The translations under genes and the position numbers were made by a program. Source: Alphaproteobacteria bacterium (GTDB taxonomy: Bacteria; Pseudomonadota; Alphaproteobacteria; Micropepsales; Micropepsaceae). Taken from it: DNA of 64,000 bases. Position 1 is the first letter of the stretch. Each line of letters opens with the position of its first letter. Of the stretch, positions 11,582 to 64,000 are shown piece after piece. The notes below the pieces were generated by a model that did not search any database, was not told where the DNA came from, and was given only the letters and a program-made list of their open reading frames with translations. The stretch is taken from the NCBI GenBank assembly GCA_947473475.1, contig CANJBZ010000007.1, forward strand, positions 1 through 64,000, written 5' to 3'.

Positions 11582-12463
11582 TCAAAAATCGGGTTTCGCG
11601 GCTTGTGGTATCGGCTCGACATCGCCATAGCCGAACCATTGGGAATTGTTCTCCGCGCAGGACGCTTCCACCATCGGGCCGCCAGTGTTGCGCTGATAAA
11701 CCTGCAGTGCGCTCCAAGCCGTCGTAAAAGCGCCTGGGTCTTCCACGCGGACAGAAACTTCTATCGTTTTTCCACCGGGGGGCAGCCGGTAACGCTCGAC
11801 GACATGCATTTGGGCCGTGTGCGGCGTGCGGTAGGAATCGACGAAGGTGCGGTCGTTCAGGCCAATTGTGTCGACAACCAGCGTGTCGCCATTTTCGTAA
11901 TGACCAATGGATTCGCCGAACCAGGACGGCTTCACATTCTGCGAATGTTTGTCCGTCAAATACACATGCCGGGCCATGTGGTCTTCCTCCCAGATCATCG
12001 TCACTTCCTTCGGCGTCTGAAGAAAGTAGACGGGCCGCACGGGATAAAGCAGCCATCCCGGCACGCCGATGGGCCAACAGCGTTCCTTGGGCGTGAAATA
12101 GGGTTTGCCGGAAAGCGCCTGTTCGTTGGCTTTGCGAAGCGCATCCTTAACCCACGGCATCAGCATGGGATTGTTCAGGTTGGCGACGCGATAGGTCGGC
12201 TGCTTGCCGTCGCGGCGCGCGGCGGCATCGTCGGTATGGGGATGGGCGGGATCGTTGGTGACGGGGCCGGGGCCGCTCACCGGCGGCAGATAATCCTGGC
12301 CGGTGGGGTTCTCTCCCCTAGGATCGCCCGCAATCCAGCCTGTTCCGCTGTCCGGCGAAAAGATGGGAATCGGACCATTGTTCTGGGCGGCGGCGGGCCA
12401 CGTGATGGCTCCCGCCAGCATCACCAGCGGCACGACATTCAAGAGGGTCCGCATGGCTGTCAT
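11582..12463 (-). CDS. DF-tail exported paralog, cluster A no. 3 (subfamily 2)
   Basis: 293 residues with signal peptide ending near WPAAAQ. Unlike its three cluster A neighbours it has the cluster B layout: GWIAGD...DYLPPVSGPGP near 35-65, RVANLNNPMLMPWVKDALRKANE, first Cys in ERCWPIGVP, FLQTPKEVTMIWEEDHMARHVYLTDKHS, SWFGESIGHYENGDTLVVDT, second Cys in ASCAENN and final residues PDF. Six bases separate it from the upstream copy. Its position suggests exchange between the two arrays or an ancestral mixture (inference). Confidence 0.85.
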   Translation of the reverse strand: MTAMRTLLNVVPLVMLAGAITWPAAAQNNGPIPIFSPDSGTGWIAGDPRGENPTGQDYLPPVSGPGPVTNDPAHPHTDDAAARRDGKQPTYRVANLNNPMLMPWVKDALRKANEQALSGKPYFTPKERCWPIGVPGWLLYPVRPVYFLQTPKEVTMIWEEDHMARHVYLTDKHSQNVKPSWFGESIGHYENGDTLVVDTIGLNDRTFVDSYRTPHTAQMHVVERYRLPPGGKTIEVSVRVEDPGAFTTAWSALQVYQRNTGGPMVEASCAENNSQWFGYGDVEPIPQAAKPDF

Positions 12464-49772: not shown

Positions 49773-50672
49773 TCAGAAATCCGCGGTCTTCGCTTCCGGA
49801 ATTGGGGCCACACCGAGACTGAAGAAGTTGGTGTGATTTTCGGCGCAGGGCGATTCATCGACTTCGCCTTGCAGTCTCAGGCGATAGGTTTGCCGGGCAG
49901 ACCATTTCGTCGTGAACGCGCCGGGGTCTTCGACATCCACTTTCACTTCCATCGTGCGGCCGTCGGGCACGAGCGTGTAACGCTCGACGACATGCAGCGC
50001 CTTGGTGTGCGGCGTCAGATAATTGTCGACAAAGGTCTTGTCCGAAATCGCGATGGTGTCCACCACCAGCGTGTCGTGGCCTTCGTAGTGGCCAACGGAT
50101 TCGCCATACCAGGACGGCTTCGGATTCATGGAATGCGGCACGTTCAGATAAACATGGCGGGTCTGTGCATCGCCCTCATTGATGAGCAGCACGTCCTTGG
50201 CGCCTTGGACAATATAAACGGGCCGCACGCGCGTGTAGACGGTGAACGCTGGCACGCCCGCCGGCCAGCAGCGCTCGCGCGGATTGTAGGGTATGCCGCC
50301 CGCAAGAACGCGCGCGTTTGCTTTTTCCAGCGATTGCCTGACCCAAGGCTGCAGAATGGGATTTGATGTATCGGCGACGCGATAGGTCGGATCGCCGCTT
50401 TGGTTGCTGCGATAGGGGTGTTTGGGATCGGCGAAGATCGGTCCTGGTCCAGAGTCGGGCGGCAGGAAATCATCGCCCACTTCGTACCAGCCATAATCGA
50501 CGGCGGCGAAATTCGGGATGCCGTCGGCGCGCGGCTTCAGCGTCCCTTCCGCGGCGAGCGGAAAACCCGCGCCCTGCGGAAGACCGGCGGCGCGCTGGTC
50601 CAACGTCGCCGCGGATGCCGCCGCCAGGGAAGCCGCAACCGCTGCCGCCGTATAGACCTTCAATCCGCGCAT
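49773..50672 (-). CDS. DF-tail exported paralog, cluster B no. 14
   Basis: 299 residues from ATG 50672 (weak ribosome site); the open extension upstream to 50882 lies in the next gene. Signal peptide to about ASAATL, then YGWYEVGDDFLPPDSGPGP, TYRVADTSNPILQPWVRQSLEKAN, first Cys in ERCWPAGVP near 135, TRHVYLNVPHSMNPKPSWY and GESVGHYEGHDTLVVDT. Second Cys in ESPCAENH; ends TADF. It has an extra HD pair before TLVVDT and a long insert after the signal (residues 28-58). Last gene of cluster B on the minus strand. Confidence 0.83.
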   Translation of the reverse strand: MRGLKVYTAAAVAASLAAASAATLDQRAAGLPQGAGFPLAAEGTLKPRADGIPNFAAVDYGWYEVGDDFLPPDSGPGPIFADPKHPYRSNQSGDPTYRVADTSNPILQPWVRQSLEKANARVLAGGIPYNPRERCWPAGVPAFTVYTRVRPVYIVQGAKDVLLINEGDAQTRHVYLNVPHSMNPKPSWYGESVGHYEGHDTLVVDTIAISDKTFVDNYLTPHTKALHVVERYTLVPDGRTMEVKVDVEDPGAFTTKWSARQTYRLRLQGEVDESPCAENHTNFFSLGVAPIPEAKTADF

Positions 50673-50706
50673 AAGACTGTGCCGTGATGCCTTCGCCACT
50701 CGGCTA

Positions 50707-51522
50707 TCAAAAATCGGGCCGGTTGGCGACAGGAACCGGCCAGTCGAACAGGCCGAAATTGTTCTCCGCGCAGACCACCTCGGTGAGCGGCCCTTCCTCA
50801 ACGCGACGATACCGCTGTAACGCCGACCAGGGCTTGTTGAACGTGTTCGGGTCATCCACCGTGATCTTCGTCTCCAGCACACGTCCGTTGTCCGTCAGGC
50901 GGTAGCGCTCCACGACGTGCAGCTTTTCAGTGTGGGGCGTGCGGTAATTGTCGACATAGGTCTTGGTGTTCATGCCGATGGTGTCGACCACAAGCGTGTC
51001 GCCTTCATAGCGGCCGACCGACTCGCCATACCAGGACGGCCTAGGATTTTTGGAATGCTCTACGTTCATCCGTACTCGGCGGACCTCCTGGTTGCCGGCG
51101 AAAATGAGCCGCACGTCCTTCGGCGTCTGGATGAAATAGATCGGCTCGACAATGTAGGACGAAAATCCGGGGACGCCCGCCGGTGTGCAGCTTGACCGCG
51201 CGGTGAATGCGTTCTTGCCGGCCAAGACCGCGTCATTGTCTTTCTTCATCTGCGCCGCCGCCCAGGGCTTCAGATTGGGATTGGCGGTGTCGGCAATGCG
51301 GAACGTCGCCTGCGCCGCCCGTCCATTCGGCACATAGGGATGCGCCGGATCGAACGTGCTGGGCGGCGTCTCACCCGGCACCGGCGCCAGATCGTTGTTC
51401 ATCGCGATCCACGCCGTACCGCCATTGGCTTGGAGATCGGGCGGGGAGGGCGCGTCGGCAGCGAATGCCGCGGATGAGAGCACAAGGCTCACGATCGACA
51501 ATAGCGTCCGTTTACGGAGCAT
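50707..51522 (-). CDS. DF-tail exported paralog, cluster B no. 13
   Basis: 271 residues, the shortest copy. Signal peptide to about SSAAFAAD; WIAMNNDLAPVPGE, TFRIADTANPNLKPWAAAQMKKDN, first Cys in SSCTPAGVP at 112, YFIQTPKDVRLIF, SWYGESVGRYEG, TPHTEKLHVVERY, second Cys near 251 and final residues RPDF. Arg replaces His in the usual SVGHYEG core. Follows the 121-bp repeat that separates it from the tannase-like gene. Confidence 0.83.
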   Translation of the reverse strand: MLRKRTLLSIVSLVLSSAAFAADAPSPPDLQANGGTAWIAMNNDLAPVPGETPPSTFDPAHPYVPNGRAAQATFRIADTANPNLKPWAAAQMKKDNDAVLAGKNAFTARSSCTPAGVPGFSSYIVEPIYFIQTPKDVRLIFAGNQEVRRVRMNVEHSKNPRPSWYGESVGRYEGDTLVVDTIGMNTKTYVDNYRTPHTEKLHVVERYRLTDNGRVLETKITVDDPNTFNKPWSALQRYRRVEEGPLTEVVCAENNFGLFDWPVPVANRPDF

Positions 51523-51564
51523 TATTTCTTCAACCTCTTTACCCCTCGTTCAAAAACCAACTTT

Positions 51565-51685
51565 ACCATGGCCGGGCTTGACCCGGCCACCTAGTGCGCA
51601 CGCGTCTGCGGGCGCAAAAGAATCATTGGCTCGCCGACGCTCGCCTGCTGGGTGGCCGGCTCGGAGGCCGGCCATGGTGAGAGAT
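51565..51685. repeat. 121-bp dispersed structured repeat, copy 2
   Basis: Aligns end to end with 33700-33820 at the same length. First stem GGCCGGG-CTTGA-CCCGGCC against GGCCGCC-CTTGA-GGCGGCC in copy 1: the two base pairs differ on both strands at once. Last stem GGCCGGC-TCGGAG-GCCGGCC and the tail GGTGAGAGAT are unchanged. Lies between a DF-tail gene and the tannase-family gene. Confidence 0.85.
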
Positions 51686-51697
51686 TTGGTTTCATGA

Positions 51698-53359
51698 TCA
51701 CGGTTTCGCACAACTGAAACTGGCAGCGTCCTTCACGTCGCCTTTGCCGTCGTAGCGCGGGTAGGCGGGATACAGGCACATCGGCCGCGCGGCGACCGTC
51801 GGGAACGGCGCCTTCTGTTCCTGCGACACCTGCATCAGCACTGCCGGTGCTTTGCCGCCATCGACCCATCCGTCGAGCGCACCCAGCATGTCCACTTTCG
51901 CCGGTACCGCTTCGCCGTTTGCCATCACGCCGTTACCCGGATGATTGACGCCGGGCGTCGTATAAAAACGCATAAACGAATCCACGCGCGCCGGGCCCAT
52001 CTTGGCGACGACGGATTTGTAATAGGTGGTCTCCTGCAGCACGCTGCGCTGATAGTCCGCGCCATTGCCTTTCAGGATCAGCTTGCCGCCACGCGCGAGG
52101 AACGCAGACAAGTCCGGATCGGTCGCGTCGAACATCTGCGAGATTTCGCGCAGGCGGGCGGTGCTTTCTTGAATCGAGAATTGGAACGGGTTGAACTTGG
52201 CGTCCTTCGCGACGTAGTAGCGGATAAAGCCGTTGGAGTTCGCCCAGGCGACCGATTGCACCTTTTCCGAGATAAGCGGGAAGCGCGGCGGCTCCAACCC
52301 GGTAATGGTATCAACCATGCCGCCGGGCTGAACCTCGCTGCCATAGGTCCAGCCGGGGAAACTTGTCGTCCCGTTCTTCATCGCGAACGGATACGGGAAC
52401 GGCCGGTGTATCAGGCGGTCGGCTTCGATCTGTGCATCCGATAAACAGGTATCGCCTTCATCCTTGCCGGACGCGCAGCGGATTACCTTCGGATCGAAAA
52501 CCGTCATGCATTGTTCGTAGGCGCCGATCACCCCGTCCGCCAAACCGTCGAGCTTGTCGCAAGCCGCATTGACGGCCGTCATCAGCGTTTTCACCTTGGC
52601 CGGGTTGAGCCAGCCGCCATCGTTTTGCAGTTGCGCCAGCTTATTCCGCACCAACTGACCGCCCGTGTAATTCGCCACTGGGACCACCGCGACGATGCCG
52701 TCGAAATCATTGGGGAAACGCTGCGCCATGGTCAGCGCCTCGCGTCCGCCTTCGGAGCCGCCATAGAAATACATCTTCGTCGGCGCGCGGTCGTAAAAGG
52801 CCGTCGCGATGCGCACGCCCGCATCGTGCGTCTTCTTGTAGGCGGCATAAGCCATGTTGGTCAGCGACTCGTCGTTCAGCGCGAACGCCATAGGCTCAGC
52901 CAGCTTCTTGTTGTCGTGGCCGGAATCCGTGCCCCATGTCGCAAAGCCACGCGCCACCGGAACGGGCGTATCGCGCCGCGCATCGCGCAATGGCGCAAGA
53001 CCGGTAATCAGAACGCCATTGCTGCCGCCGCCGCCATATTGCACCGCCTTGCCGTTCCACTGCATCGGCAGGTTCACTTCGAAATTCACCGGCGGCGCGT
53101 TGGGATCGAGCGGCTGCACCGCGCCGAGCACCTTGCAATATTCCTTCGTCGCGCCGGGGTTAGCGGGATCGGCAACCACCGTGGCGATTTGTGCAGACGA
53201 GATCGTTGCGCCGCCGTTCGGCAAGCCGATGTCTTTGGCAGCGATCTTCAGTTGAACCAGATCGGCGCACGCCGTGGCTGCGTTGGCGGGCGCAGCGGCC
53301 AATGCCAACGCCGCCGTGGCGCTCGTGGCAAGCAACAGGCGCAAAGAGGCGTGGGTCAT
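51698..53359 (-). CDS. Tannase/feruloyl esterase family hydrolase without the CS-D-HC cysteines
   Basis: 553 residues, signal peptide to about AAPANAATA. Family features: GGTISS-like N-terminal stretch, YGGGGSNGVLI, YFYGGSEGGREALTMAQRFP nucleophile loop, GGKLILKGNGADYQRS (likely catalytic Asp) and PGVNHPGNG (His). Canonical enzymes have Cys before the Ser and after the His, linked by a disulfide (CS-D-HC). Here both positions are changed, to Gly and Pro. Sits between two DF-tail copies on the same strand, so it may work with them. Substrate likely an aromatic ester. Confidence 0.85.
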   Translation of the reverse strand: MTHASLRLLLATSATAALALAAAPANAATACADLVQLKIAAKDIGLPNGGATISSAQIATVVADPANPGATKEYCKVLGAVQPLDPNAPPVNFEVNLPMQWNGKAVQYGGGGSNGVLITGLAPLRDARRDTPVPVARGFATWGTDSGHDNKKLAEPMAFALNDESLTNMAYAAYKKTHDAGVRIATAFYDRAPTKMYFYGGSEGGREALTMAQRFPNDFDGIVAVVPVANYTGGQLVRNKLAQLQNDGGWLNPAKVKTLMTAVNAACDKLDGLADGVIGAYEQCMTVFDPKVIRCASGKDEGDTCLSDAQIEADRLIHRPFPYPFAMKNGTTSFPGWTYGSEVQPGGMVDTITGLEPPRFPLISEKVQSVAWANSNGFIRYYVAKDAKFNPFQFSIQESTARLREISQMFDATDPDLSAFLARGGKLILKGNGADYQRSVLQETTYYKSVVAKMGPARVDSFMRFYTTPGVNHPGNGVMANGEAVPAKVDMLGALDGWVDGGKAPAVLMQVSQEQKAPFPTVAARPMCLYPAYPRYDGKGDVKDAASFSCAKP

Positions 53360-53376
53360 AGGGGCGTTCCTTTTTC

Positions 53377-54213
53377 TTAGAAGTCAGGGGTCTTGGCCTG
53401 CGGAATGGGGTCCATGTCATAGCCGAGGAAATTGTTCGGATTCTCGGCGCAGCTTTGCTCCGGCATCGGCCCGTTCTGCACGCGGCGATAACGCTGCATC
53501 GCATGCCAGGGCGTCGTGAAGGCGCCGGGGTCTTCCACCATCACGTCCACCGTCAGCCCCTTTTGATCGGGATTGATCTTGAAGCGCTCTACAACGTGCA
53601 GTTTGGTGGTGTGCGGCGTGCGGAAATTGTCGACGTAAGACTTGTCGTTCAGTCCGACGGTGTCGACCACCAGCGTATCGCCGTTTTCATAGTGGCCGAT
53701 GGATTCGCCGAACCAGGACGGCCCAGGATTGGCGCTGTGCTTATCCGTCAGATAGACCCGCCGCACCTCATGATTGGGCGGCCAGACCAGCACCACTTCC
53801 TTCGGCGTCTGGATGAAATAGACGGGCTGCGCGGGATGCAGCAGATAGGCGGGTACGCCCTGCGGAATGCAGCTCACCTGCGGCGTAAACCCGCCACGCC
53901 CGCCCGCCTTTACATTCTCATTCACCTTGGTGAGCGCCTCACGCACCCAGGGTTGCAGAATGGGATTGCTGACGTCCGCATCGCGAAAGGTAGGCTGCGC
54001 CCCCGTGTTGTTGCCACCATGCTCGTGACCTGGAACGTCGCGCACGGGACCCGGACCGCTTGGCGGCTGCAGGAAGTCCGCTCCCGCGGCCTGCCAGCCG
54101 CCGTCCATAAAGGCGAAGGGTGGAATCTGCGTGTTGTCGGCCGCCAGCGCCGTGCCCGCACATGCGAGCGTCGCGGCGCCCATGGCGGCCGCAAACATCC
54201 TCGAAGCAGTCAT
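53377..54213 (-). CDS. DF-tail exported paralog, cluster B no. 12
   Basis: 278 residues from ATG 54213 (an ATG at 54216 is adjacent to GGGAGGG). Signal peptide to about GTALAAD; GGWQAAGADFLQPPSGPGP, first Cys in QVSCIPQGVP, YLLHPAQPVYFIQTPKEVVLVW, YLTDKHSANPGPSWFGES, TPHTTKLHVVERF, second Cys in EQSCAEN and tail TPDF. 17 bases from the tannase-like gene downstream and 23 from the upstream copy. Function unknown. Confidence 0.85.
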   Translation of the reverse strand: MTASRMFAAAMGAATLACAGTALAADNTQIPPFAFMDGGWQAAGADFLQPPSGPGPVRDVPGHEHGGNNTGAQPTFRDADVSNPILQPWVREALTKVNENVKAGGRGGFTPQVSCIPQGVPAYLLHPAQPVYFIQTPKEVVLVWPPNHEVRRVYLTDKHSANPGPSWFGESIGHYENGDTLVVDTVGLNDKSYVDNFRTPHTTKLHVVERFKINPDQKGLTVDVMVEDPGAFTTPWHAMQRYRRVQNGPMPEQSCAENPNNFLGYDMDPIPQAKTPDF

Positions 54214-54236
54214 CATCCCTCCCTGAAAACGATACG

Positions 54237-55157
54237 TCAGAAGTCCGGTTTGGCCGCCTCTGGAGCGCCCACCCAGCCCGGTATATTGAAGATGTTGTCG
54301 TTGTTCTCGGAACAGTTCTGTTCGATCAACGGTCGGTTCGGCGTGCGGGTGTAGGTCTGCTTCGTCTGCCAAGGCTGATTGAAGGCTTCCGGATCGTCCA
54401 CGGTCAGATTGACCTCAAGGCGCTTGCCCTCTTCGATGAGATGATAGCGTTCCACGACGTGCAGCTTTTCGGTGTGCGGCGTGTGGTAATTATCCACGAC
54501 GGCCTTGGTCGACAGCCCGATGGTGTCCACCACCAGCGTATCGCCCTCGTAGTGGCCCACGGATTCTCCGTACCAGGATGGTTTGGGATTGTTGCTGTGC
54601 GGCACGTTCATATGAACATGCCGGACCTCGCGGTTGCCGGAATAGATCAGCAGCACTTCCTTGGGCGATTGAATGACGTAAACCGGCTCGACCACGAAGA
54701 TGGAGAATCCCGGCACGCCCCCCGGCAGGCAGCTCCAGCGTGGGGTGGTTCCAAGCTCGCCGCCGGCCAAAACTTTGTCGTTCCACTTCTTCAGCTCGGC
54801 GACGACCCAAGGCTTCAGATTGGGATTGCTGAGGTCCGCGATGCGATAGGTGGCTTGGCCGGGCTCGTCGTTACGGCGGAACGGATATTTCGGATCCCAG
54901 GTCACCGGGCTGGGGCTGCCTGGAACGGCCACGAAATCCGAGTTGATGGCGATCCATCCGTCCGTAGGCGCCCAAAAATTCGGGATGCTGGAATTCTCCG
55001 CCGCTGACGCGGCCGTCAGACAAAAGAGAGATGCCGCTACTGCTCCTACCCTCCCCTTGAGGGAGGGTCGAACGCGGCGTAGCCCAAAGGGCGAAGCCTC
55101 CCACCCTCCCTCAAGGGGAGGGTGGGAGGCTGTGACTCGCGACAAAAAACGAAACAT
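54237..55157 (-). CDS. DF-tail exported paralog, cluster B no. 11, with repeat inserted in signal peptide
   Basis: 306 residues from ATG 55157 (GAGGT upstream). Residues 1-9 (MFRFLSRVT) and about 39-52 (AVAASLFCLTAASA) would join to a perfect signal peptide. About 29-30 residues between them (starting ASHPPLEGGWEAS) are encoded by a palindromic repeat at 55044-55129, kept in frame. The rest is standard: DGWIAINSDFVAVPG, first Cys in RWSCLPGGVP, VYVIQSPKEVLLIY, SWYGESVGHYEG, TPHTEKLHVVERY, second Cys in EQNCSEN and tail KPDF. Export may be weakened by the insert. Confidence 0.83.
   Translation of the reverse strand: MFRFLSRVTASHPPLEGGWEASPFGLRRVRPSLKGRVGAVAASLFCLTAASAAENSSIPNFWAPTDGWIAINSDFVAVPGSPSPVTWDPKYPFRRNDEPGQATYRIADLSNPNLKPWVVAELKKWNDKVLAGGELGTTPRWSCLPGGVPGFSIFVVEPVYVIQSPKEVLLIYSGNREVRHVHMNVPHSNNPKPSWYGESVGHYEGDTLVVDTIGLSTKAVVDNYHTPHTEKLHVVERYHLIEEGKRLEVNLTVDDPEAFNQPWQTKQTYTRTPNRPLIEQNCSENNDNIFNIPGWVGAPEAAKPDF
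55044..55129. repeat. Palindromic element inside a coding sequence
   Basis: Left CCCTCCCCTTGAGGGAGGG (55049-55068) is repeated inverted as CCCTCCCTCAAGGGGAGGG (55103-55122), with CCTACC/GGTGGGAGG-type outer ends and a 30-base core. About 86 bases long, in frame inside the gene at 54237-55157. Such elements are otherwise intergenic. Confidence 0.8.
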
Positions 55158-55173
55158 CGGGACCTCACTCGTC

Positions 55174-56052
55174 TCAAAAATCCGGCCGTTTGGCTTCCGG
55201 CATCGGCTCGGTTTCATGGTTGAAATAGTTCGCGTTATTTTCCGCGCAGTTCATCTCAATGATAGGCCCTGGCTCGACCCGGCGGTAGCGCTGAATAGCG
55301 TTCCAGGGCTGGGTAAACGCGCCGGGGTCTTCCACGCGCAGGTCCACCTGCAGGACCTTGCCGCCCTCGATCATGTGGAAGCGTTCGACGATATGCAGTT
55401 TGTCCGTATGGGGCGTGCGGTAATTGTCGACGAAGACCTGATCGTTCAGTCCGACCGTATCGACCACCAGCGTATCGCCTTCGTAATGACCGACCGACTC
55501 GCCGTGCCAGGATGGGGCGGCCTTCGCCGAATGGGGCACGTTCAGATAGACGTGACGCACCATGTGATCGAACTGGGTCATCATCACGATCTCTTTGGCG
55601 GTCTGGACAAAGAACAGCGGCTGCACCGGGTAGAGCAGATAAACCGGCACGCCGTTGGGCCAGCACGCCGTCTGCCGCGTGTAGCCGGGCCTACCCGCCA
55701 GCACCGCCTCGTTGCGCTTACGCAGGGCTTCGCGCGTCCACGGCAACAGGATTGGGTTGGAGAGGTCCGCCACACGGAAGGTGGAGGCGCCCAGAAACTT
55801 CATGGACGGCTGTGCCGCGCGGTATTCCACTTCATCGGGAATGAAGGGGTGCTGAGGGTCGCTGAGGATCGGTCCAGCGCCGCTCGCGGGCGGCAGAAAA
55901 TCGGTGCCATAGGCGATCCAGCCCACATTGGGCGTGGGCGAAAGGCTCAGCGGCGGTGCGCTGTTCTGGGCGAAACTGGCGCCGCCGCAAAAGCCGCACG
56001 TGGCAGCTGCGGCAAAGACACCTGCGAAAACAAAATCTCTGAAACGAAGCAT
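55174..56052 (-). CDS. DF-tail exported paralog, cluster B no. 10
   Basis: 292 residues from ATG 56052, two bases after the preceding stop. Signal peptide to about GGASFAQN; has an insert of about 12 residues (EVEYRAAQPSMKFL) ahead of the RVADLSNPILLPW stretch, then first Cys in QTACWPNGVP, YLLYPVQPLFFVQT, APSWHGESVGHYEGDTLVVDT (His in place of Tyr/Phe), TPHTDKLHIVERF, second Cys in MNCAENN and tail RPDF. Function unknown. Confidence 0.84.
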   Translation of the reverse strand: MLRFRDFVFAGVFAAAATCGFCGGASFAQNSAPPLSLSPTPNVGWIAYGTDFLPPASGAGPILSDPQHPFIPDEVEYRAAQPSMKFLGASTFRVADLSNPILLPWTREALRKRNEAVLAGRPGYTRQTACWPNGVPVYLLYPVQPLFFVQTAKEIVMMTQFDHMVRHVYLNVPHSAKAAPSWHGESVGHYEGDTLVVDTVGLNDQVFVDNYRTPHTDKLHIVERFHMIEGGKVLQVDLRVEDPGAFTQPWNAIQRYRRVEPGPIIEMNCAENNANYFNHETEPMPEAKRPDF

Positions 56053-56054
56053 GG

Positions 56055-56921
56055 TCAAAAATCCGGATGATCTTGCTGCGGCAGCGGGTCGAAGTCGAAA
56101 TTGAAGTAATTGATGTTGCCTTCAGCACAGGTGGATTCCGCCATCGCGCCGACTTCCAGCCGCGCATAAAGCTGCTTGGCCTGCCAGGGCGTCGTGAACG
56201 CGCCGGGGTCTTCGACCGTCAGGCTCACTTCGATGCGGGTTTCCGCGTTCATCAGGCGGTAGCGTTCGACCACGTGCAGCTTGTCGGTGTGGGGCGTGCG
56301 GTAATTGTCGACGAAGGTCTTGGTGTTCAGCCCGATCGTATCCACCACCAGCGTGTCGCCATTTTCGTAGTGGCCGATGGATTCGCCAAACCATGACGGC
56401 TTGGGATTGGGCGTGTGCTTATCGGTCAGATAAATGTGCCGGACCATCATGTCCGACTGCCAGATCATCAGCACTTCCTTCGGCGTTTGGATGATGTAGG
56501 TCGGTTGCGCCGTGTACAGAACAAACGCCGGCACGCCCAGCGGCCAGCAGCGCACCTGAGGCGGGAAGGCCGGCTTGCCCGCCAGAACCTTGTCGTTGGT
56601 CTTTTTCAGCTCGTCTTTGACCCAGGGCTGAAGGATGGGATTGTTCAAATCGGCCACCCGCAACGTCGGCTGACGCCCGCCGCGTCCGCTTTGGATGTAG
56701 GGATGGGCTGGATCGGGCGTGACGGGATGCGGCCCGCTGTCCGGGGGCATGTATTCGTTGCCATAGGCCAGCCAGCTTACGGACTCGTCGCCGCCGAAAT
56801 TCGGAATCTTGCCAGGCGGCACCGGCAGGCTGGGAGCCTGCGCCAACGCCAGCCCTGCGCACAACGCCACGGAAGCGCCCGCAAGCAGCGACGTCGCGCA
56901 TGCAACTCGAAATTTCACCAT
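56055..56921 (-). CDS. DF-tail exported paralog, cluster B no. 9
   Basis: 288 residues from ATG 56921; the long frame back to 57431 is the antisense of the neighbour and is discarded. Signal peptide to about AGLALAQAP, WLAYGNEYMPPDSGPHP, RVADLNNPILQPWVKDELKKTND, first Cys in QVRCWPLGVP, YIIQTPKEVLMIWQSD, PSWFGESIGHYENGDT, TPHTDKLHVVERY, second Cys in ESTCAEGN and tail HPDF. Typical subfamily 2 member with an almost consensus sequence. Confidence 0.85.
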   Translation of the reverse strand: MVKFRVACATSLLAGASVALCAGLALAQAPSLPVPPGKIPNFGGDESVSWLAYGNEYMPPDSGPHPVTPDPAHPYIQSGRGGRQPTLRVADLNNPILQPWVKDELKKTNDKVLAGKPAFPPQVRCWPLGVPAFVLYTAQPTYIIQTPKEVLMIWQSDMMVRHIYLTDKHTPNPKPSWFGESIGHYENGDTLVVDTIGLNTKTFVDNYRTPHTDKLHVVERYRLMNAETRIEVSLTVEDPGAFTTPWQAKQLYARLEVGAMAESTCAEGNINYFNFDFDPLPQQDHPDF

Positions 56922-56938
56922 GCCGGTCCAATACCTGT

Positions 56939-57799
56939 TCAAAAATCCGCTTTCGCCGCGACCGGAAGCGGCTCGGTGCGCTGCTGGAACGGGTTGTTCA
57001 TTTCGCCATCCGCGCAGCGCGATTCGATCATCGGTCCGGGGGCTTTGCGCCAGCGATGGATGACGTGCAGCGGCTGCTTCAGCACCGCCGGGTCGTCCAT
57101 GGTGATGTCCGCTTCGAGCTTCTCGCCGCCTTCGATCAGGCGGATGCGCTCGACGACGTGCAGCTTCTCGGAATGCGGCGTGCGGTAATTGTCGATGAAG
57201 GTCTTGGTGTTTTGGCCAATGGTGTCCACGATCAGCGTATCGCCTTCCCAGTGACCGACAGATTCTCCGTACCAGGACGGTTTGGGATTGGCGGAGTGCG
57301 GGACGTCCATATAGATGTGGCGAATCTGCTGATCCATCTGCCACATCATGGTGATCTTCTTCGGCTCCTGCAGGATGAAGGTCGGCTGCGCCGGGTTCAG
57401 CAGATAGACCGGCGTGCCGGACATCCAGCAACGCGACTCGCGAGCGAACATCGCAAAGCCGGACAAAACCAGGTCGTTCGACTTCTTCAATTCCGCCTTC
57501 GCGAAATCGGTCAGATTGGGATTGCTGATGTCGGCGACGCGGAACGTCGATTGCTCACCCGAACCATTGGGCACGTAGCGGTGCGCCGGATCATAGGTAA
57601 CCGGCTGCGGACCGCCGGGCACCGGATCGTAGTCCGTGCCGATGGAAATCCAGCCGGTATTGTTGTCGGAGAAGACCGGCCGCGCACCATTGGCCGGCGC
57701 CGCCGCAAGACTTGGCGCCAAGCCAAGTCCCGCCAGCAACCCGATTGCAGCAGTTCCAGAAAACAAGCTCACGAAACGCTTCGACGCAAATTTGGACAT
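56939..57799 (-). CDS. DF-tail exported paralog, cluster B no. 8
   Basis: 286 residues from ATG 57799 behind GGGAGG. Signal peptide to about APSLAAAP; GWISIGTDYDPVPGGPQP, STFRVADISNPNLTDFAKAELKKSND, first Cys in ESRCWMSGTP (no Val after Gly), FILQEPKKITMMWQMD, SWYGESVGHWEGDTLIVDT, TPHSEKLHVVERI, second Cys in ESRCADGE and tail KADF. One of the more divergent copies around the CWP motif. Confidence 0.84.
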   Translation of the reverse strand: MSKFASKRFVSLFSGTAAIGLLAGLGLAPSLAAAPANGARPVFSDNNTGWISIGTDYDPVPGGPQPVTYDPAHRYVPNGSGEQSTFRVADISNPNLTDFAKAELKKSNDLVLSGFAMFARESRCWMSGTPVYLLNPAQPTFILQEPKKITMMWQMDQQIRHIYMDVPHSANPKPSWYGESVGHWEGDTLIVDTIGQNTKTFIDNYRTPHSEKLHVVERIRLIEGGEKLEADITMDDPAVLKQPLHVIHRWRKAPGPMIESRCADGEMNNPFQQRTEPLPVAAKADF

Positions 57800-57837
57800 C
57801 GGTACCTCCCAATCCCAATGCCCCATCCCGTCAGCGA

Positions 57838-58797
57838 TCAGAAATCCGCTCTATTGGCCTCCGGGATCGGGGGCAGTTTCTGCTTGAAGAAGATGGCGTC
57901 ATTGTTGTTTTCGGCGCAAACCGTCTCAAGAAGCGGGTTCACCACTTTGCGCCATTTCTGCATCATGTGCAGCGGTTCGTTGAACGTATCGGAGTCTTCC
58001 ACCATCACCACCGCCGTCAACTCTTTGCCGTCCGGCGAGATCGTGAAGCGCTCGACAACATGCTCCTTCTCGGTGTGCGGGGTGCGGAAATTGTCGATGA
58101 AGTTGTTCTTCGTGGCCAAACCGATGGTGTCGACCACCAGCGTATTGCCGTTTTCATAATGGCCGATGGAGTGGCCGAAGGACTCGGTCTTCACATTGGC
58201 CGGGTGCTTATCGGTCAGGAAGATACGGCGGACCATATGGTCGCGCTGCCAGATCATCCAAACTTCCTTGGGGGTCTGAATGAAATAGAACGGCTCCGCC
58301 GGATACAGCAATTGCCCCGGAACCCCGCCCGGCCAGCAGCGCGCTTGCGCCGCAAACGGCACGTCGAGCTTGCCGGAGAGCACCTCGTCATTGCTCGCCT
58401 TCATGGCGTCCGACGCCCATTTCTTGATCCGGGGGTCGCGGTAATCGCCGATACGCAGTGTCGGCTGCACGCCCAGACGTATCGCCTCGACATTGCTGAT
58501 CTGCGGATGCTCGGGATCGTTCTTGATGCGCCCATGCCCCGGCGTACCGGCGGGAGGGTCCATCCAATCGGCGCCGACAGACAGCCAAGCGAACTGCGTC
58601 GAGGCAAGGTTCGGAATGCCGTCCTTCGTCACCGTGAAGTCCAGGAAGTTCGGCGTGGAGGTATCGACAAGAGACGGTTCACTCTGCCGTTGCGCCGATG
58701 AAGCGGGCGATAGCGCCGCAACCACGAGAGAAGCCACGGCGCAAAAGGCGAGAGCGCCTTTGCGTGCGGTAGAGGAGAGCAGGGCAGTCTTTAACAT
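57838..58797 (-). CDS. DF-tail exported paralog, cluster B no. 7 (tandem twin)
   Basis: 319 residues from ATG 58797 (GGAG upstream; ATG at 58800 is alternative). Signal peptide to about ALSPASSAQ. Long N-terminal spacer with FTVTKDGIPNLASTQFAWLSVGADW, then DYRDPRIKKWASDAM, first Cys in QARCWPGGVP, YFIQTPKEVWMIWQRDHMV, SFGHSIGHYENGNTLVVDT, LATKNNFIDNFRTPHTEKE, second Cys in ETVCAENN and tail RADF. Very like the next copy, with which it forms a recent duplicate pair. Confidence 0.86.
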   Translation of the reverse strand: MLKTALLSSTARKGALAFCAVASLVVAALSPASSAQRQSEPSLVDTSTPNFLDFTVTKDGIPNLASTQFAWLSVGADWMDPPAGTPGHGRIKNDPEHPQISNVEAIRLGVQPTLRIGDYRDPRIKKWASDAMKASNDEVLSGKLDVPFAAQARCWPGGVPGQLLYPAEPFYFIQTPKEVWMIWQRDHMVRRIFLTDKHPANVKTESFGHSIGHYENGNTLVVDTIGLATKNNFIDNFRTPHTEKEHVVERFTISPDGKELTAVVMVEDSDTFNEPLHMMQKWRKVVNPLLETVCAENNNDAIFFKQKLPPIPEANRADF

Positions 58798-58859
58798 CAT
58801 CAACTCCGTACGTGTGTTCATGCTCCAATCAAAACCGGCCCTGCATTCTCAGCCGGGCG

Positions 58860-59810
58860 TCAGAAGTCGGCTTTGGCCGCTATCGGCATCGGCGGCAGTT
58901 TCTGATGGAAGAACTCGCTATCGTTGTTGTTCTCGGCGCAAACCGTCTCCAGCAGCGGGTTCACGACCTTGCGCCATTTCTGCATCATCTGGATCGGTTC
59001 GTTGAACGTGTCCGGGTCATCGACCACCGCCACATTCGTCAATTCCTTGCCGTCCGCGGAGATGGTGAAGCGCTCGACAACGTGCTCCTTCTCGCTATGC
59101 GGCGTACGGAAATTGTCGATGAAATTGTTGTGGGTCGCCAGCCCAATGGTGTCCACGACCAACGTGTTGCCGCCTTCGTAATGGCCGATGGAGTGGCCGA
59201 AGGATTGCGGCGTCACATTGTCCGGATGCTTGTCCGTGAGATAGACGCGGCGCACCATGTGGTCGCGCTGCCAGATCATCCAGACTTCCTTCGGGGTCTG
59301 AATGAAATAGAACGGTTCGGCCGGATAGAGCGATTGGGCCGGTACGCCGCCCGGCCAGCAGCGCGCCTGCGCCGCGAACGGCACGTCGAGCTTGCCGGAA
59401 AGCACCTCGTCATTGCTCGCCTTCATGGCGTCGGACGCCCATTTCTTTATCCGGGGATCGCGATAGTCGCCGATGCGCATCGTGGGCTGCACGCCCAAAC
59501 GGCGCGCTTCCACATTGCCGATCAACGGATGTTCGGGATCGTTCTTGATACGGCCCTTGCCCGGCGTGCCCGGAGGGGGATCCATCCAGTCCGCGCCGAC
59601 GGACAGCCAGGCGAATTGTGTGGAAGACAGATTGGGTATGCCGTCCTTCGTCACCGTGAAATCGAGATTGGGCGGCGTGTCGCGGTCGACGAGACCTGGT
59701 TCCGCACCTTGACGCTGCGCCGACGAGGCCGGCGACAGCGCCGCAACGACAAGCGCGGCAACCGCGCAGGCGGAAAGCGCGGTGGAAGAAGCAAATTTCG
59801 TTTTGAACAT
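58860..59810 (-). CDS. DF-tail exported paralog, cluster B no. 6 (tandem twin)
   Basis: 316 residues from ATG 59810 behind ACGGAG. By eye about four in five residues match the copy at 57838-58797, including the SPASSAQRQ signal-peptide end, DGIPNLSSTQFAWLSVGADW, IKKWASDAMKASNDEVL, SFGHSIGHYEGGNTLVVDT and LPPMP near the end; tail KADF. Gap to its twin is 62 bases, larger than elsewhere in the array. Function unknown. Confidence 0.86.
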   Translation of the reverse strand: MFKTKFASSTALSACAVAALVVAALSPASSAQRQGAEPGLVDRDTPPNLDFTVTKDGIPNLSSTQFAWLSVGADWMDPPPGTPGKGRIKNDPEHPLIGNVEARRLGVQPTMRIGDYRDPRIKKWASDAMKASNDEVLSGKLDVPFAAQARCWPGGVPAQSLYPAEPFYFIQTPKEVWMIWQRDHMVRRVYLTDKHPDNVTPQSFGHSIGHYEGGNTLVVDTIGLATHNNFIDNFRTPHSEKEHVVERFTISADGKELTNVAVVDDPDTFNEPIQMMQKWRKVVNPLLETVCAENNNDSEFFHQKLPPMPIAAKADF

Positions 59811-59844
59811 TACTCAACTCCGTAGTGTGTGTGCGTACTTCCGA

Positions 59845-60732
59845 TCAGAAATCCGGCGGGATGCCCATCGGCATGGCGTACAGTTTCTGATGGAAAATTT
59901 CGGCGTCGTTGTTGTTTTCCGCGCAGACCGTTTCGCCCATTGGCGCATCGACCTTGAACCAGCGCTGCTGCATCGTCAGCGGTGCGTTGAACGTGTCCGG
60001 GTCTTCCACGGTTGCGATGGACGTAATGTGCTTGCCGTCTTTTTCGATCGTGAACCGTTCCACCACGTGCTCTTTTTCGGTGTGCGGCGTGCGGAAATTG
60101 TCGATGTAGCTGTTTTTGGTGGAAAGGCCGATCGTATCGACAACCAGCGTGTCGCCGTTTTCGTAATGGCCGATGGATTCGCCGAACCAGTCGGGCTTCG
60201 GATTGGGCGAGTGTTTGTCGCGCAGATAGATGCGGCGCACCATGTGATCGCGCTGCCACATGATCCAAACCTCTTTCGGCGTCTGCACGAAATAGATCGG
60301 CTCGAACGGGTACAGCGATTGTCCCGGCACGCCACCCGGCCAGCAGCGCGCCTGCGCGGCGAACGGGACGTCAACCTTGTGTTCCAGCGCCTCAATGTTG
60401 GTCGCTTCCATCTGCTTTGCCGCCCAAGGCTTCAGGATCGGGTCTTTTGTATCGCCCACTCGCATGGTCGGCTGAATGCCGCGCCGGTTCGCTTCCGCAT
60501 TGCTGACGAAGGGATGGGCGGGATCGTTACGGATGGGGCCGTGGCCGGGCGTGCCCGCCGGCGGTTCCTGCCAGTCCGCAACGTCGCTCTCCCAGCCATA
60601 ATTGGCCGAAGCGAAATCCGGGATTTTCTCGTCAGCCGCGACCGGAACCACCCCTGTGGCTGCCGCGATCAGAGCGGCCAAAGCCGCACCAAAAAACAAG
60701 CCTGCGCGCGTCATCCTGGACTGAAACATCAT
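59845..60732 (-). CDS. DF-tail exported paralog, cluster B no. 5
   Basis: 295 residues from ATG 60732 behind GAGGAAACA. Signal peptide to about VVPVAADE; YGWESDVADWQEPPAGTPGHG, MRVGDTKDPILKPWAAKQMEATN, first Cys in QARCWPGGVP, YFVQTPKEVWIMWQRDHMV, PDWFGESIGHYENGDT, TPHTEKEHVVERF, second Cys in ETVCAENN and tail PPDF. It groups with the two twin copies through KEHVVERF and the AQARCWPGGVP stretch. Confidence 0.86.
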   Translation of the reverse strand: MMFQSRMTRAGLFFGAALAALIAAATGVVPVAADEKIPDFASANYGWESDVADWQEPPAGTPGHGPIRNDPAHPFVSNAEANRRGIQPTMRVGDTKDPILKPWAAKQMEATNIEALEHKVDVPFAAQARCWPGGVPGQSLYPFEPIYFVQTPKEVWIMWQRDHMVRRIYLRDKHSPNPKPDWFGESIGHYENGDTLVVDTIGLSTKNSYIDNFRTPHTEKEHVVERFTIEKDGKHITSIATVEDPDTFNAPLTMQQRWFKVDAPMGETVCAENNNDAEIFHQKLYAMPMGIPPDF

Positions 60733-61033
60733 TGTTTCCTCAAAACGAAACGGTCCGCCCAAATGTCTTTTTTAGGCGGAAACTATGTCTCCGCCCCTTT
60801 GGCCGCAGATTAAGGCTCTGACGGCCTCCGGGCAACCGGCAGCCGCACCGCATATTGCCGCTGAAAGGCGGTGGAGGGGCCTTTATTCCCCCGCTTGCGG
60901 GGGAAGTGGCGCGCGCAGCGCGACGATGGGGGCGCGATGGCTCAAATGGCCTAAATCTAGCGGCGGCTTGCCCCCTCCACCGCTTCGCGGTTCCCCTCCC
61001 CCGCGAAGTGGCGGGGGAGGATCCCACTTAACC
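60733..61033. repeat. Intergenic stretch with REP-like palindromes
   Basis: The only gap above 150 bases inside cluster B. Right part (about 60960-61022) carries GGGGGAGGGGAACC-hairpin-GGTGGAGGGGGC with hairpin ACCGC-GAA-GCGGT read on the minus strand; left part (about 60868-60915) has CCCCCGCTTGCGGGGGAAG and a partial inverted mate. Same family as 19926-20126. A promoter for the copy at 60732 must lie here but no clear boxes stand out. Confidence 0.7.
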
Positions 61034-61894
61034 TCAAAAATCTGGATTGTTGGCCTGCGGGATGGGCACCACGTCGTATCCCAGGAAGTCCGAATTGTTC
61101 TCGGCGCAGGGGTTTTCCGCGAGGATGCGGTCCGTCGGCTTCCAGCGCTGGATCGCCGTCCAGGGCATGTTGAAGGTTTCCGGATCGTCCACCGTAACGG
61201 TCGCCTGAAGGGTCTTGCCGCCTTCGATCAGCTTGTAGCGCTCCACGACGTGGATTTTGTCCGTATGGGGCGTGCGGTAATTGTCTGCGGTGGTGCGGTC
61301 GTTCAGCCCAATCGTGTCGATGACCAGTTCGTCGCCTTCGAAATGGCCAACCGATTCGCCGTACCAGGACGGCTTGGGGTTCTTGGTATGCGGTACGTTC
61401 AGATAGATGTGGCGCACTTCGGCGTTCAGTTCGTTGACCATCGTGACCTCGGTCTTCGACTGGTAGAAGAACAAGGGCTGCCCGCCACGCGTGAACACCA
61501 GCGATCCCGGCACACCGGCCGGCCAGCAGCGTTCGCGGGTGATGTAAGGGACTTTCCCGGCCAGAACATCGTCGTTGGCCTTTTTCATCTTTGCGATGGC
61601 CCACGGCTTCAGGATGGGGTTCGTCAGATCCGCGACGCGGTAGGTCGGCTGCCGCCCGCCGCCATTGGGGATGTACGGATGTTTCGGGTCCGACATGACC
61701 GGGCTCGCCATGCCGGGCACGGGGATGAAGTCATCGCCGGTCGGGCGATCCGGCACCCAGCCGCTGTTGGGCTGCGGGGTGAACAACGGCACGGCGCTCG
61801 CATGATCGGCCGCCGAAGCCGGCATCAACAGAACGCCTGCGCATGCCGCCCCCAACAGAGCCGCCCGTGCGATTCCTGGTTTCAATCCCGTCAT
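61034..61894 (-). CDS. DF-tail exported paralog, cluster B no. 4
   Basis: 286 residues from ATG 61894 behind GGGAGGACG. Signal peptide to about LMPASAAD; SGWVPDRPTGDDFIPVPGM, TYRVADLTNPILKPWAIAKMKKAND, first Cys in ERCWPAGVP, FFYQSKTEVTMVNELNAEV, SWYGESVGHFEGDELVIDT, TPHTDKIHVVERY, second Cys in ENPCAENN and tail NPDF. Glu replaces Thr in the usual DTLVVDT. Function unknown. Confidence 0.86.
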   Translation of the reverse strand: MTGLKPGIARAALLGAACAGVLLMPASAADHASAVPLFTPQPNSGWVPDRPTGDDFIPVPGMASPVMSDPKHPYIPNGGGRQPTYRVADLTNPILKPWAIAKMKKANDDVLAGKVPYITRERCWPAGVPGSLVFTRGGQPLFFYQSKTEVTMVNELNAEVRHIYLNVPHTKNPKPSWYGESVGHFEGDELVIDTIGLNDRTTADNYRTPHTDKIHVVERYKLIEGGKTLQATVTVDDPETFNMPWTAIQRWKPTDRILAENPCAENNSDFLGYDVVPIPQANNPDF

Positions 61895-61919
61895 ATCGTC
61901 CTCCCAAGCAGCCGGTTGT

Positions 61920-62762
61920 TCAGAAATCCGGCTTGTCTGTATGCGGCACGGCGACATAGCCGTGACCGAAAAAGTCGGTATTGTTCTCGGCGCAGACGGC
62001 CTCTTCCATTTTGGCACGAGTCTGGCGCTGATATTGCTGTTTTGCGCGCCAGACCGTGGTGAAGGCGCCGGGGTCCTCGACCGTCACATCGAGATTGAGC
62101 GTCTTGCCGTCATCTGCCACACGATAGCGTTCCACCACATGAAGCTGCGTCGTGTGCGGCGTCAGGTAATTGTCGATATAGGTTTTGTCGTTCATCCCGA
62201 TAGTATCGACGATAAGCTCCTCGCCCTCGTAATGGCCGACGGATTCTCCGTACCAGGACGGTTTTGGATTTTTGGAATGCGGCACGTTCAGGAAAATGTG
62301 GCGGACCTGCTGGTCGCCCTCATTGATGATGGTCACTTCGCGCGGGCCTTGCAGAAAATAGACGGGACGCAACCGCGAGAAGACGTCGAAACCGGGCACG
62401 CCCGCCATGTGGCAGGTCTCGCGCGGATTGTACGGCACCTTGCCGGCGATCACGACCGCATTGGCTTTGCGCATTTGTTCGCGCGCCCAGGGCTGCAGAA
62501 TCGGGTTGCTCAGATCGGCGACGCGGTCGGTCGGCTGACGTCCGCTTTGATTGCTGTAATAGGGGTGCGCCGGGTCGAAGGCGATAGGGCCAGGTCCCGA
62601 TTCGGGCGGCATGAAATCATCGCCGGCCGGAAACCAGCCATATTCGGAATAGGACAATCCGGCGAGCGGCCCCGAGGTTTTCTGCTGGTCTTGCGCGTTC
62701 GCATCAGCCCACGCGGCAGCGAGGGCTATCGCGGCAACGGCGGAAGCGGCGCCTCGCAGCAT
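61920..62762 (-). CDS. DF-tail exported paralog, cluster B no. 3
   Basis: 280 residues from ATG 62762, one base after the preceding stop (TGA-C-ATG). Signal peptide to about AWADANAQ; YGWFPAGDDFMPPESGPGP, TDRVADLSNPILQPWAREQMRKAN, first Cys in RETCHMAGVP, YFLQGPREVTIINEGDQQV, SWYGESVGHYEGEELIVDT, TPHTTQLHVVERY, second Cys in EAVCAENN and tail KPDF. Most like the last copy of the array (49773) in its VEGD-type middle. Coupled to its upstream neighbour. Confidence 0.86.
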   Translation of the reverse strand: MLRGAASAVAAIALAAAWADANAQDQQKTSGPLAGLSYSEYGWFPAGDDFMPPESGPGPIAFDPAHPYYSNQSGRQPTDRVADLSNPILQPWAREQMRKANAVVIAGKVPYNPRETCHMAGVPGFDVFSRLRPVYFLQGPREVTIINEGDQQVRHIFLNVPHSKNPKPSWYGESVGHYEGEELIVDTIGMNDKTYIDNYLTPHTTQLHVVERYRVADDGKTLNLDVTVEDPGAFTTVWRAKQQYQRQTRAKMEEAVCAENNTDFFGHGYVAVPHTDKPDF

Positions 62763-62763
62763 G

Positions 62764-63621
62764 TCAAAAATCCGGTGTGTCGGCTTTGGCCAGCGGCACC
62801 AGGCCTTGGCTGAAATGGTCGTCATTGTTCTCGTTGCAGGGCACTTGCAGGATCGGCGCGTCATCCACACGCTTCCAGCGTTGCACGGCCCGCCACGGCA
62901 TCTTGAACGCGCCGGTATCTTCCACATAGACCGACACGTCGATGGTCTTGGCGTCGGCCGAAAGCTTCCAGCGTTCGATGACGTGTATCTGTGTCGTATG
63001 CGGCGTGCGGTAGTTGTCGGTGAAGGTCTTGTCGTTCTGGCCGATGGTGTCGATCACCAGCGTGTCGCCGTTTTCGTAATGCCCGACAGATTCTCCGTAC
63101 CAGGACGGTTTAAGGTTTTTGGAATGTGGGACGTTCATATAGATGTGGCGTATTTCAGGGCCGCCCTGGTTGATGACCACGATCTCGTTCTTCAGCGGAT
63201 AGAAGAAATAGGGCTCGACCAGCGAATAGGCGTCGAAGCCCGGCACGCCCACGGGAAAGCAGCGTTCGCGGGCGCGGTACGGGACTTTCCCCGCCAGCAC
63301 CTCGTCGTTCGCCTTTTTCATCGGCGGCTTCAGCCAATCCTGAAGGATCGGATTGTTCAGATCGGCTACCCGATACGTGGAATGCGGGCCGAAATTGTTG
63401 GGAATGTAGGGATGGGCTTTGTCGAACACGACTGGCCCGGGACCGCCGCTCGGATCGGGCAGCAGATCGTCAACCCCAAAGGCGTGATCCAGAACCCAGC
63501 CGGTGTTCGGCCCCGGCGAGAACACCGGAATTTTCTGTGCTGTGGCCGTATCGGCCGCGACCGCCGCGCCGGCCATGCAAACCGCCAACGGTACTGCCCA
63601 AATTGCACTGAATCGCGACAT
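62764..63621 (-). CDS. DF-tail exported paralog, cluster B no. 2
   Basis: 285 residues from ATG 63621 behind AAGGAAG. Signal peptide to about AGAAVAAD; TGWVLDHAFGVDDLLPDP, TYRVADLNNPILQDWLKPPMKKAND, first Cys in ERCFPVGVP, YFFYPLKNEIVVINQGGPE, SWYGESVGHYENGDTLVID, TPHTTQIHVIERW, second Cys in QVPCNENND and tail TPDF. Phe replaces Trp in the CWP motif. Follows a 137-base gap with a terminator, so it probably starts a new transcript. Confidence 0.86.
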   Translation of the reverse strand: MSRFSAIWAVPLAVCMAGAAVAADTATAQKIPVFSPGPNTGWVLDHAFGVDDLLPDPSGGPGPVVFDKAHPYIPNNFGPHSTYRVADLNNPILQDWLKPPMKKANDEVLAGKVPYRARERCFPVGVPGFDAYSLVEPYFFYPLKNEIVVINQGGPEIRHIYMNVPHSKNLKPSWYGESVGHYENGDTLVIDTIGQNDKTFTDNYRTPHTTQIHVIERWKLSADAKTIDVSVYVEDTGAFKMPWRAVQRWKRVDDAPILQVPCNENNDDHFSQGLVPLAKADTPDF

Positions 63622-63681
63622 GTGCCGCTTCCTTTGGCGTTACGTCTTTATCCGGAAACAACGCAGGCGAACTGCGGAAAC

Positions 63682-63735
63682 AAAAAGGCCGGCAACGATG
63701 CCCATCTCATATGTCTTGGACATCATACCGGCCTT
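63682..63735 (-). terminator. Terminator-like stem-loop between array copies
   Basis: On the minus strand AAGGCCGG pairs with CCGGCCTT across a 35-base loop that holds a smaller TGTC-CAA-GACA hairpin, followed by TTTTTGTTTCC. It would end transcripts coming from the partial copy at the right edge. The long loop makes it weaker than a typical terminator. Confidence 0.5.
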
Positions 63736-63758
63736 CCCGCGGTCTTTACCGCTTCCTA

Positions 63759-64000
63759 TCAGAAGTCGCCTTTGTCGGCCTTCGGCAGCGCAACGACGTC
63801 GTAGCTGAAATAGCCGTCATTGCTGGGCTCGCAGAGATATTCCTCCAGAGGCCGCGCGATCTTCTTCCAACGCTGCACGCCGGTCCAGGGCATGTTGAAC
63901 GCGCCTGGATCGTCCACGGTCACGGTTGCCTGCAGGGTGTTGCCGCCCTCGATCAGCTTCCAGCGTTCCACGACGTGGATCTGGTCGGTGTGCGGCGTGC
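63759..64000 (-). CDS. DF-tail exported paralog, cluster B no. 1 (partial, runs off right edge)
   Basis: Only the last 80 or so codons are inside the window. They read TPHTDQIHVVERWKLIEGG, ATVTVDDPGAFNMPW, WTGVQRWKKI, the second Cys in EYLCEPSND and the tail KGDF. This is enough to assign it to the family; the start and signal peptide lie to the right. The array therefore continues beyond the window. Confidence 0.85.
   Translation of the reverse strand, partial: TPHTDQIHVVERWKLIEGGNTLQATVTVDDPGAFNMPWTGVQRWKKIARPLEEYLCEPSNDGYFSYDVVALPKADKGDF

Follow-up and report, generated by a model that had tools for sequence, protein, structure and literature searches.

The window analysed here is a stretch of 64,000 nucleotides from an alphaproteobacterium of the family Micropepsaceae, and the gene at 54237-55157 on its minus strand belongs to a group of tandem paralogs whose products have DF at their C-terminal ends. 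These secreted DF-tail paralogs lie on the minus strand at 49776-64000 and 11585-12394, and the family has at least 38 matches in the genome and many in congeners. No match at E <= 1e-30 was found in other genera of the same taxonomic family, and Novosphingobium plasmids carry weak relatives. The protein has no sequence match in Pfam, NCBIfam or PDB, and its predicted fold (mean pLDDT 63) has no PDB match at E <= 0.001. Within its signal peptide the gene carries a palindromic repeat, arranged as follows:

54237..55157, minus strand: coding sequence of the insert-bearing DF-tail secreted protein, 306 aa (open frame; orthologs 73-77% identical)
55155..55157, minus strand: ATG start of this coding sequence (from the sequence; no in-frame start between insert and hydrophobic core)
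55131..55157, minus strand: original n-region codons MFRFLSRVT (translation, paralog comparison)
~55044..55130, minus strand: inserted palindromic repeat, 87 nt or 29 codons (ASHPPLEGGWEASPFGLRRVRPSLKGRVG), absent from orthologs and paralogs and belonging to a genome repeat family; its exact ends cannot be fixed
55103..55123, minus strand: right 21-bp palindromic unit, in inverted orientation (repeat-family comparison)
55069..55102, plus strand: spacer within the element (comparison with other copies)
55048..55068, plus strand: left 21-bp palindromic unit ACCCTCCCCTTGAGGGAGGGT with inner CGAA tag (repeat-family comparison)
55002..55043, minus strand: hydrophobic core and c-region of the signal peptide, AVAASLFCLTAASA, following the insert (translation, paralog comparison)

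The insert in the signal peptide

The translation reads MFRFLSRVT-ASHPPLEGGWEASPFGLRRVRPSLKGRVG-AVAASLFCLTAASA-AEN..., so that the segment follows codon 9 and precedes the hydrophobic core of the signal peptide. The original prediction of a palindrome at 55044-55129 inside this signal peptide holds to within one base. The ATG at 55157 lies 16 nt past the stop codon of the upstream paralog (55174), which is an operon distance, it has GAGG (55163-55166) as a Shine-Dalgarno sequence at a spacing of 5 nt, and it opens an MxRF N-terminus that is also seen in the neighbouring paralog. A start codon downstream of the insert was ruled out, because the stretch from the insert to the mature protein has no in-frame ATG, GTG or TTG. 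Production of the DF-tail protein with its signal peptide thus implies translation of the insert.

The inserted DNA contains inverted repeat arms of 33 nt (55043-55075 and 55096-55128) that are 88% complementary, and a further inverted repeat of 16 nt at 55095-55131 that is perfect. The two occurrences of a 19-bp core in the window are the two arms of the element, and dinucleotide shuffles of the window yield zero matches to it. The single-strand fold predicted for the insert has an energy of -70.2 kcal/mol (z = -7.5 as RNA and -7.9 as DNA). A known RNA family was rejected as the source of the insert: an Rfam scan gave 14 matches, all far under the gathering scores and at chance level.

The two closest orthologs, from the congeners G002 and G005 (73-75% identical), have signal peptides of the ordinary kind. 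The segment is missing from them, and likewise from the neighbouring paralogs and every other paralog examined. This is the absence from close relatives that was anticipated, and not one ortholog carries the segment. A scan of genome contigs for remoter orthologs returned a single relative, at 46% identity. In G002 the orthologs of the genes at 56942, 56058, 54240 and 50710 are consecutive, both upstream and downstream of the insert-bearing gene, and in G005 the orthologs of 56058 and 54240 are consecutive, which covers the upstream side; this conserved gene order argues against misassembly. Compared with its G002 ortholog, the gene differs at 16, 11 and 46% of first, second and third codon positions, respectively. 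This concentration of changes at third positions indicates purifying selection on the gene family, a pattern that bears on the family and not on the time since insertion.

A dispersed family of palindromic repeats

The palindrome had been described as of an intergenic type, and sequence searches of the 3.87-Mb genome recover a dispersed repeat with about 43 loci, most of them intergenic. Searched at up to 3 mismatches, the 21-bp unit ACCCTCCCCTTGAGGGAGGGT matches the genome 61 times and the reversed control 0 times. Each unit forms a hairpin with an 8-bp stem and a 5-nt loop, preceded by TCC(C/T) and followed by the CGAA tag, with C-G as the second stem pair, and the units form inverted dimers. 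Full copies (118-205 bp) have the structure TCCYACCCTCCCCTTGAGGGAGGGTCGAA-[variable stem]-TTCGGGGAGGGGA-[10-18 nt loop]-TCCCCTCCCCGAA-[variable stem]-TTCGACCCTCCCTCAAGGGGAGGGTGGGA and are bounded by terminal inverted repeats, TCCYACCCTCCCC...GGGGAGGGTGGGA, as in MITEs; half copies and solo palindromes exist beside them, so that overall lengths range from 21 to 205 bp. No consistent target-site duplication is visible in the flanks of the copies, with the nearest ortholog only 73% identical and no close empty site. The spacer of the window copy shares the part CGAACGCG(A/G)CGTAGCCC..GGGCGAAG with the full copies at C20:52820, C14:75874 and C1:47457; the left half is common to all of these, and the window copy is without the inner GGGGAGGGGA..TCCCCTCCCC present in the other three. 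In full copies such as G000:C1:47513, C5:26337 and C13:53976, the arms are nearly identical and the central loop of 10-18 nt differs in every copy.

Within the genus, matches to the repeat occur in G001, G002 and G005, and none were found in the congeners G003, G004 and G006. A 24-bp form is present in only 4 of the 289 genomes searched in the class, and a TCAA variant reaches 30 copies in one distant genome; in the distant genome G154 the tag is CAA in place of CGAA. The exact palindrome sequence was not found in the literature searched. An origin through a RAYT was ruled out, since Y1_Tnp (RAYT, PF01797) is absent from the genome and the two Y1_Tnp loci seen in G002 and G005 have no copy of the palindrome beside them.

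The extragenic copies lie in 14 convergent, 19 unidirectional and 3 divergent gene gaps. Of the 33 copies that have a facing gene end, 22 are at most 10 bp away from the stop codon of that gene, against 16.0 expected if insertion were uniform in the same gaps (P = 7e-4), a result that we regard as moderate because the gene calls, made with a hexamer model, are approximate. Short palindromes in many copies, mostly extragenic and near the 3' ends of genes, are typical of REP elements in general, and the present repeat has these traits. One copy, at G000:C18:52623, directly adjoins the start codon (ATG) of a gene for a UbiG-like methyltransferase (AAGGGGAGGGTGGGTATG), and its purine-rich end could act as a ribosome-binding site.

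Other genes with in-frame copies

About 5 of the 43 loci are internal to genes and all five leave open frames: besides the window gene, at least four further genes carry intact in-frame copies, namely those for a di-haem oxidoreductase (DHOR), Maf, ThiD and DnaE2. This supports the earlier proposal that an intergenic palindrome was captured in frame within a coding region. The copies sit at tolerant places, such as the n-region of signal peptides, loops and termini.

The DHOR gene (C16:27780-29234) has a full element in its signal peptide, after MVPRNLK, giving MVPRNLK-[element]-VTVLASAALA where the G001 ortholog reads MVPRHLTLALLAAAAPAMALG. The upstream gene overlaps the DHOR gene and its TAA lies a few nt before the element, which indicates that an insertion behind a stop codon became an insertion in the DHOR signal peptide. 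Inside this element an SD-like GGGGAGGGGACAATG with an ATG is a possible new start. In Maf (C10:6435-7253), a full element lies between AKAEAV and VVLAADTVV, a second, different palindromic-looking insert lies further along, and both are absent from four congeners. A solo palindrome (C5:79234) encodes STLPLREGG in ThiD (C5:78937-79764), which is about 4-6 residues longer than in all six congeners (5-6 against most of them) and 5 longer than its PDB relatives. In DnaE2 (C1:153261) the solo palindrome IPTLPLREGRKG lies in frame within a loop that is variable among congeners too, so that the net added length is less certain. A solo copy may also extend the C-terminus of a glycerate kinase (G000:C56:5673). 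Open reading frames across the elements at C39:16318, C39:583, C3:110460 and C4:34509 were set aside as spurious or uncertain, on the basis of coding score or because no family match covered the element.

Comparison with known palindromic elements

The Rickettsia palindromic elements (RPE; Ogata et al. 2000, 2002), as far as the accounts in PMC10969869 and PMC2229807 describe them, are in-frame inserts in protein genes. The present repeat resembles what these accounts report in that a palindrome lies in frame in unrelated conserved protein genes and adds tens of residues, and in that the host proteins apparently stay functional, which we infer for the cases described here. In-frame insertion together with absence from orthologs is found in the window gene, DHOR, Maf and ThiD, so that the Rickettsia analogy drawn in the original prediction is right in kind. 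An RPE-bearing guanylate kinase has been purified and assayed for activity (PMC2229807). We draw the likeness at the level of the type of insertion. As differences, most copies here are intergenic, with about 5 of 43 in genes, their lengths range from 21 to 205 bp and their inner loops are random. The genome is also 3.9 Mb in size, whereas RPE hosts have the small genomes of obligate intracellular bacteria.

The repeat is also similar to REPs of the GTAG and CGTC superfamilies, for which insertions less than 20 bp from gene 3' ends, DnaE2 among the REP-bearing genes and some genes with two inserts have been reported (Di Nocera et al. 2013, PMC3733652). It shares the 8-bp stem, the 5-nt loop, the inverted dimers and the position near 3' ends of convergent or unidirectional genes, and some copies lie in frame inside genes, including DnaE2, with two inserts in one gene (here Maf). 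However, the GTAG tag is absent from the hairpin end, where CGAA is found instead. The CGTC superfamily is defined by the tag CGTC (or TGTC/CCTC), AT pairs at stem positions 1 and 2 and a CCA tail, and the present repeat differs in its CGAA tag and in the C-G at the second stem pair. Because the tags agree with neither superfamily, we describe the repeat as REP-like only. Unlike RAYT-mobilised REPs, it has no RAYT in its genome, and its full copies differ from REPs in having extra variable stems and a random loop of 10-18 nt.

A further parallel is the Yersinia RU-2 MITE, which contributes part of the signal peptide at locus YPO1552 (Delihas, PMC2229807). In both cases a small mobile element supplies part of a signal peptide, but in Yersinia it provides hydrophobic residues and a new exported ORF, whereas here a pre-existing signal peptide was split and a basic n-region supplied. 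This type of event is already known, from the Rickettsia elements and from intragenic REPs including those in DnaE2. The present case is a well-supported further example, and its novelty is modest.

Interpretation of the insertion

Taken together, the segment is very probably a copy of a REP/MITE-like dispersed repeat that lies in frame after codon 9 of a signal peptide that probably still works, and the effect of the copy is probably near neutral. A repeat copy, mobile by a process of the transposition type, would have landed at the junction between the n-region and the hydrophobic core. In its reading frame the inserted DNA has no stop codon. The 21-bp unit is open in five of its six frames, so that a copy whose length is divisible by three can be inserted without breaking the frame or introducing a stop. 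The last codons of the insert (RRVRPSLKGRVG) place a new run of basic residues right in front of the hydrophobic core, which is unchanged, as is the cleavage region, and the signal peptide is lengthened at its tolerant end, to 52 residues from about 23. Judging from the architecture of this signal peptide, the protein is likely still translated and exported, and the copy may persist as near-neutral rather than through any known usefulness.

The strongest alternative, although an unlikely one, is that the element acts at the RNA level, with the hairpin from codon 10 onward lowering translation or transcription relative to the operon neighbours and the peptide being incidental. The stability of the predicted fold agrees with such a role, as does the position of most copies just behind stop codons, where ribosome stalling or mRNA protection by REPs has been reported (PMC5082802, PMC12306157). 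Yet the window copy is inside a coding sequence, about 44 nt from the nearest upstream stop codon, and the solo palindromes of ThiD and DnaE2 are far from both ends of their genes, so that RNA control is not a common denominator of the copies.

Somewhat less probable still is that the insertion inactivated export or the gene itself, and that the open frame is an accident of a recent, non-functional allele. With dozens of paralogs in the genome the loss of one would be tolerable, and an n-region of 38 residues is unusually long. Against this, the frame is intact over 306 codons with the hydrophobic core and cleavage region untouched, and the open frames of all five internal captures, which include the single-copy genes ThiD and Maf, point to selection against disruptive ones.

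We consider it very improbable that translation starts elsewhere and leaves the element untranslated. Many N-terminal REPs are thought to be non-coding, a caveat raised by Di Nocera et al. 2013 (PMC3733652), and the SD-like GGGGAGGGGACAATG in the DHOR element could mark a new start, but the window gene offers no in-frame start behind the insert and has a well-placed, neighbour-like one before it. An assembly artefact that joined two contig ends through the repeat, of the sort to which repeats in a draft of 66 contigs are prone, is hardly credible, given that the flanking genes on both sides form one conserved cluster in G002, that the two gene halves meet in frame, and that independent in-frame copies exist elsewhere in the genome.

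Returning to the capture of a REP/MITE-like repeat, we tentatively propose a more general view, which is possible though doubtful: a repeat family distinct from the GTAG and CGTC REPs may decorate proteins in an alphaproteobacterium that is not a member of the Rickettsiales, repeatedly using the n/h junction of signal peptides, where insertion would be tolerated and the basic n-region would come from the element itself. One route to this outcome, as in DHOR, would start where an upstream gene overlaps the signal peptide of the next one and a copy inserts behind the stop codon of that upstream gene. The cases described here represent the decoration of proteins by palindromic repeats in an alphaproteobacterium with a larger genome, where the same genome holds several independent examples, including two in signal peptides. 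They bring within reach of simple export reporters the old question of whether such inserts are only tolerated or also alter targeting and expression.
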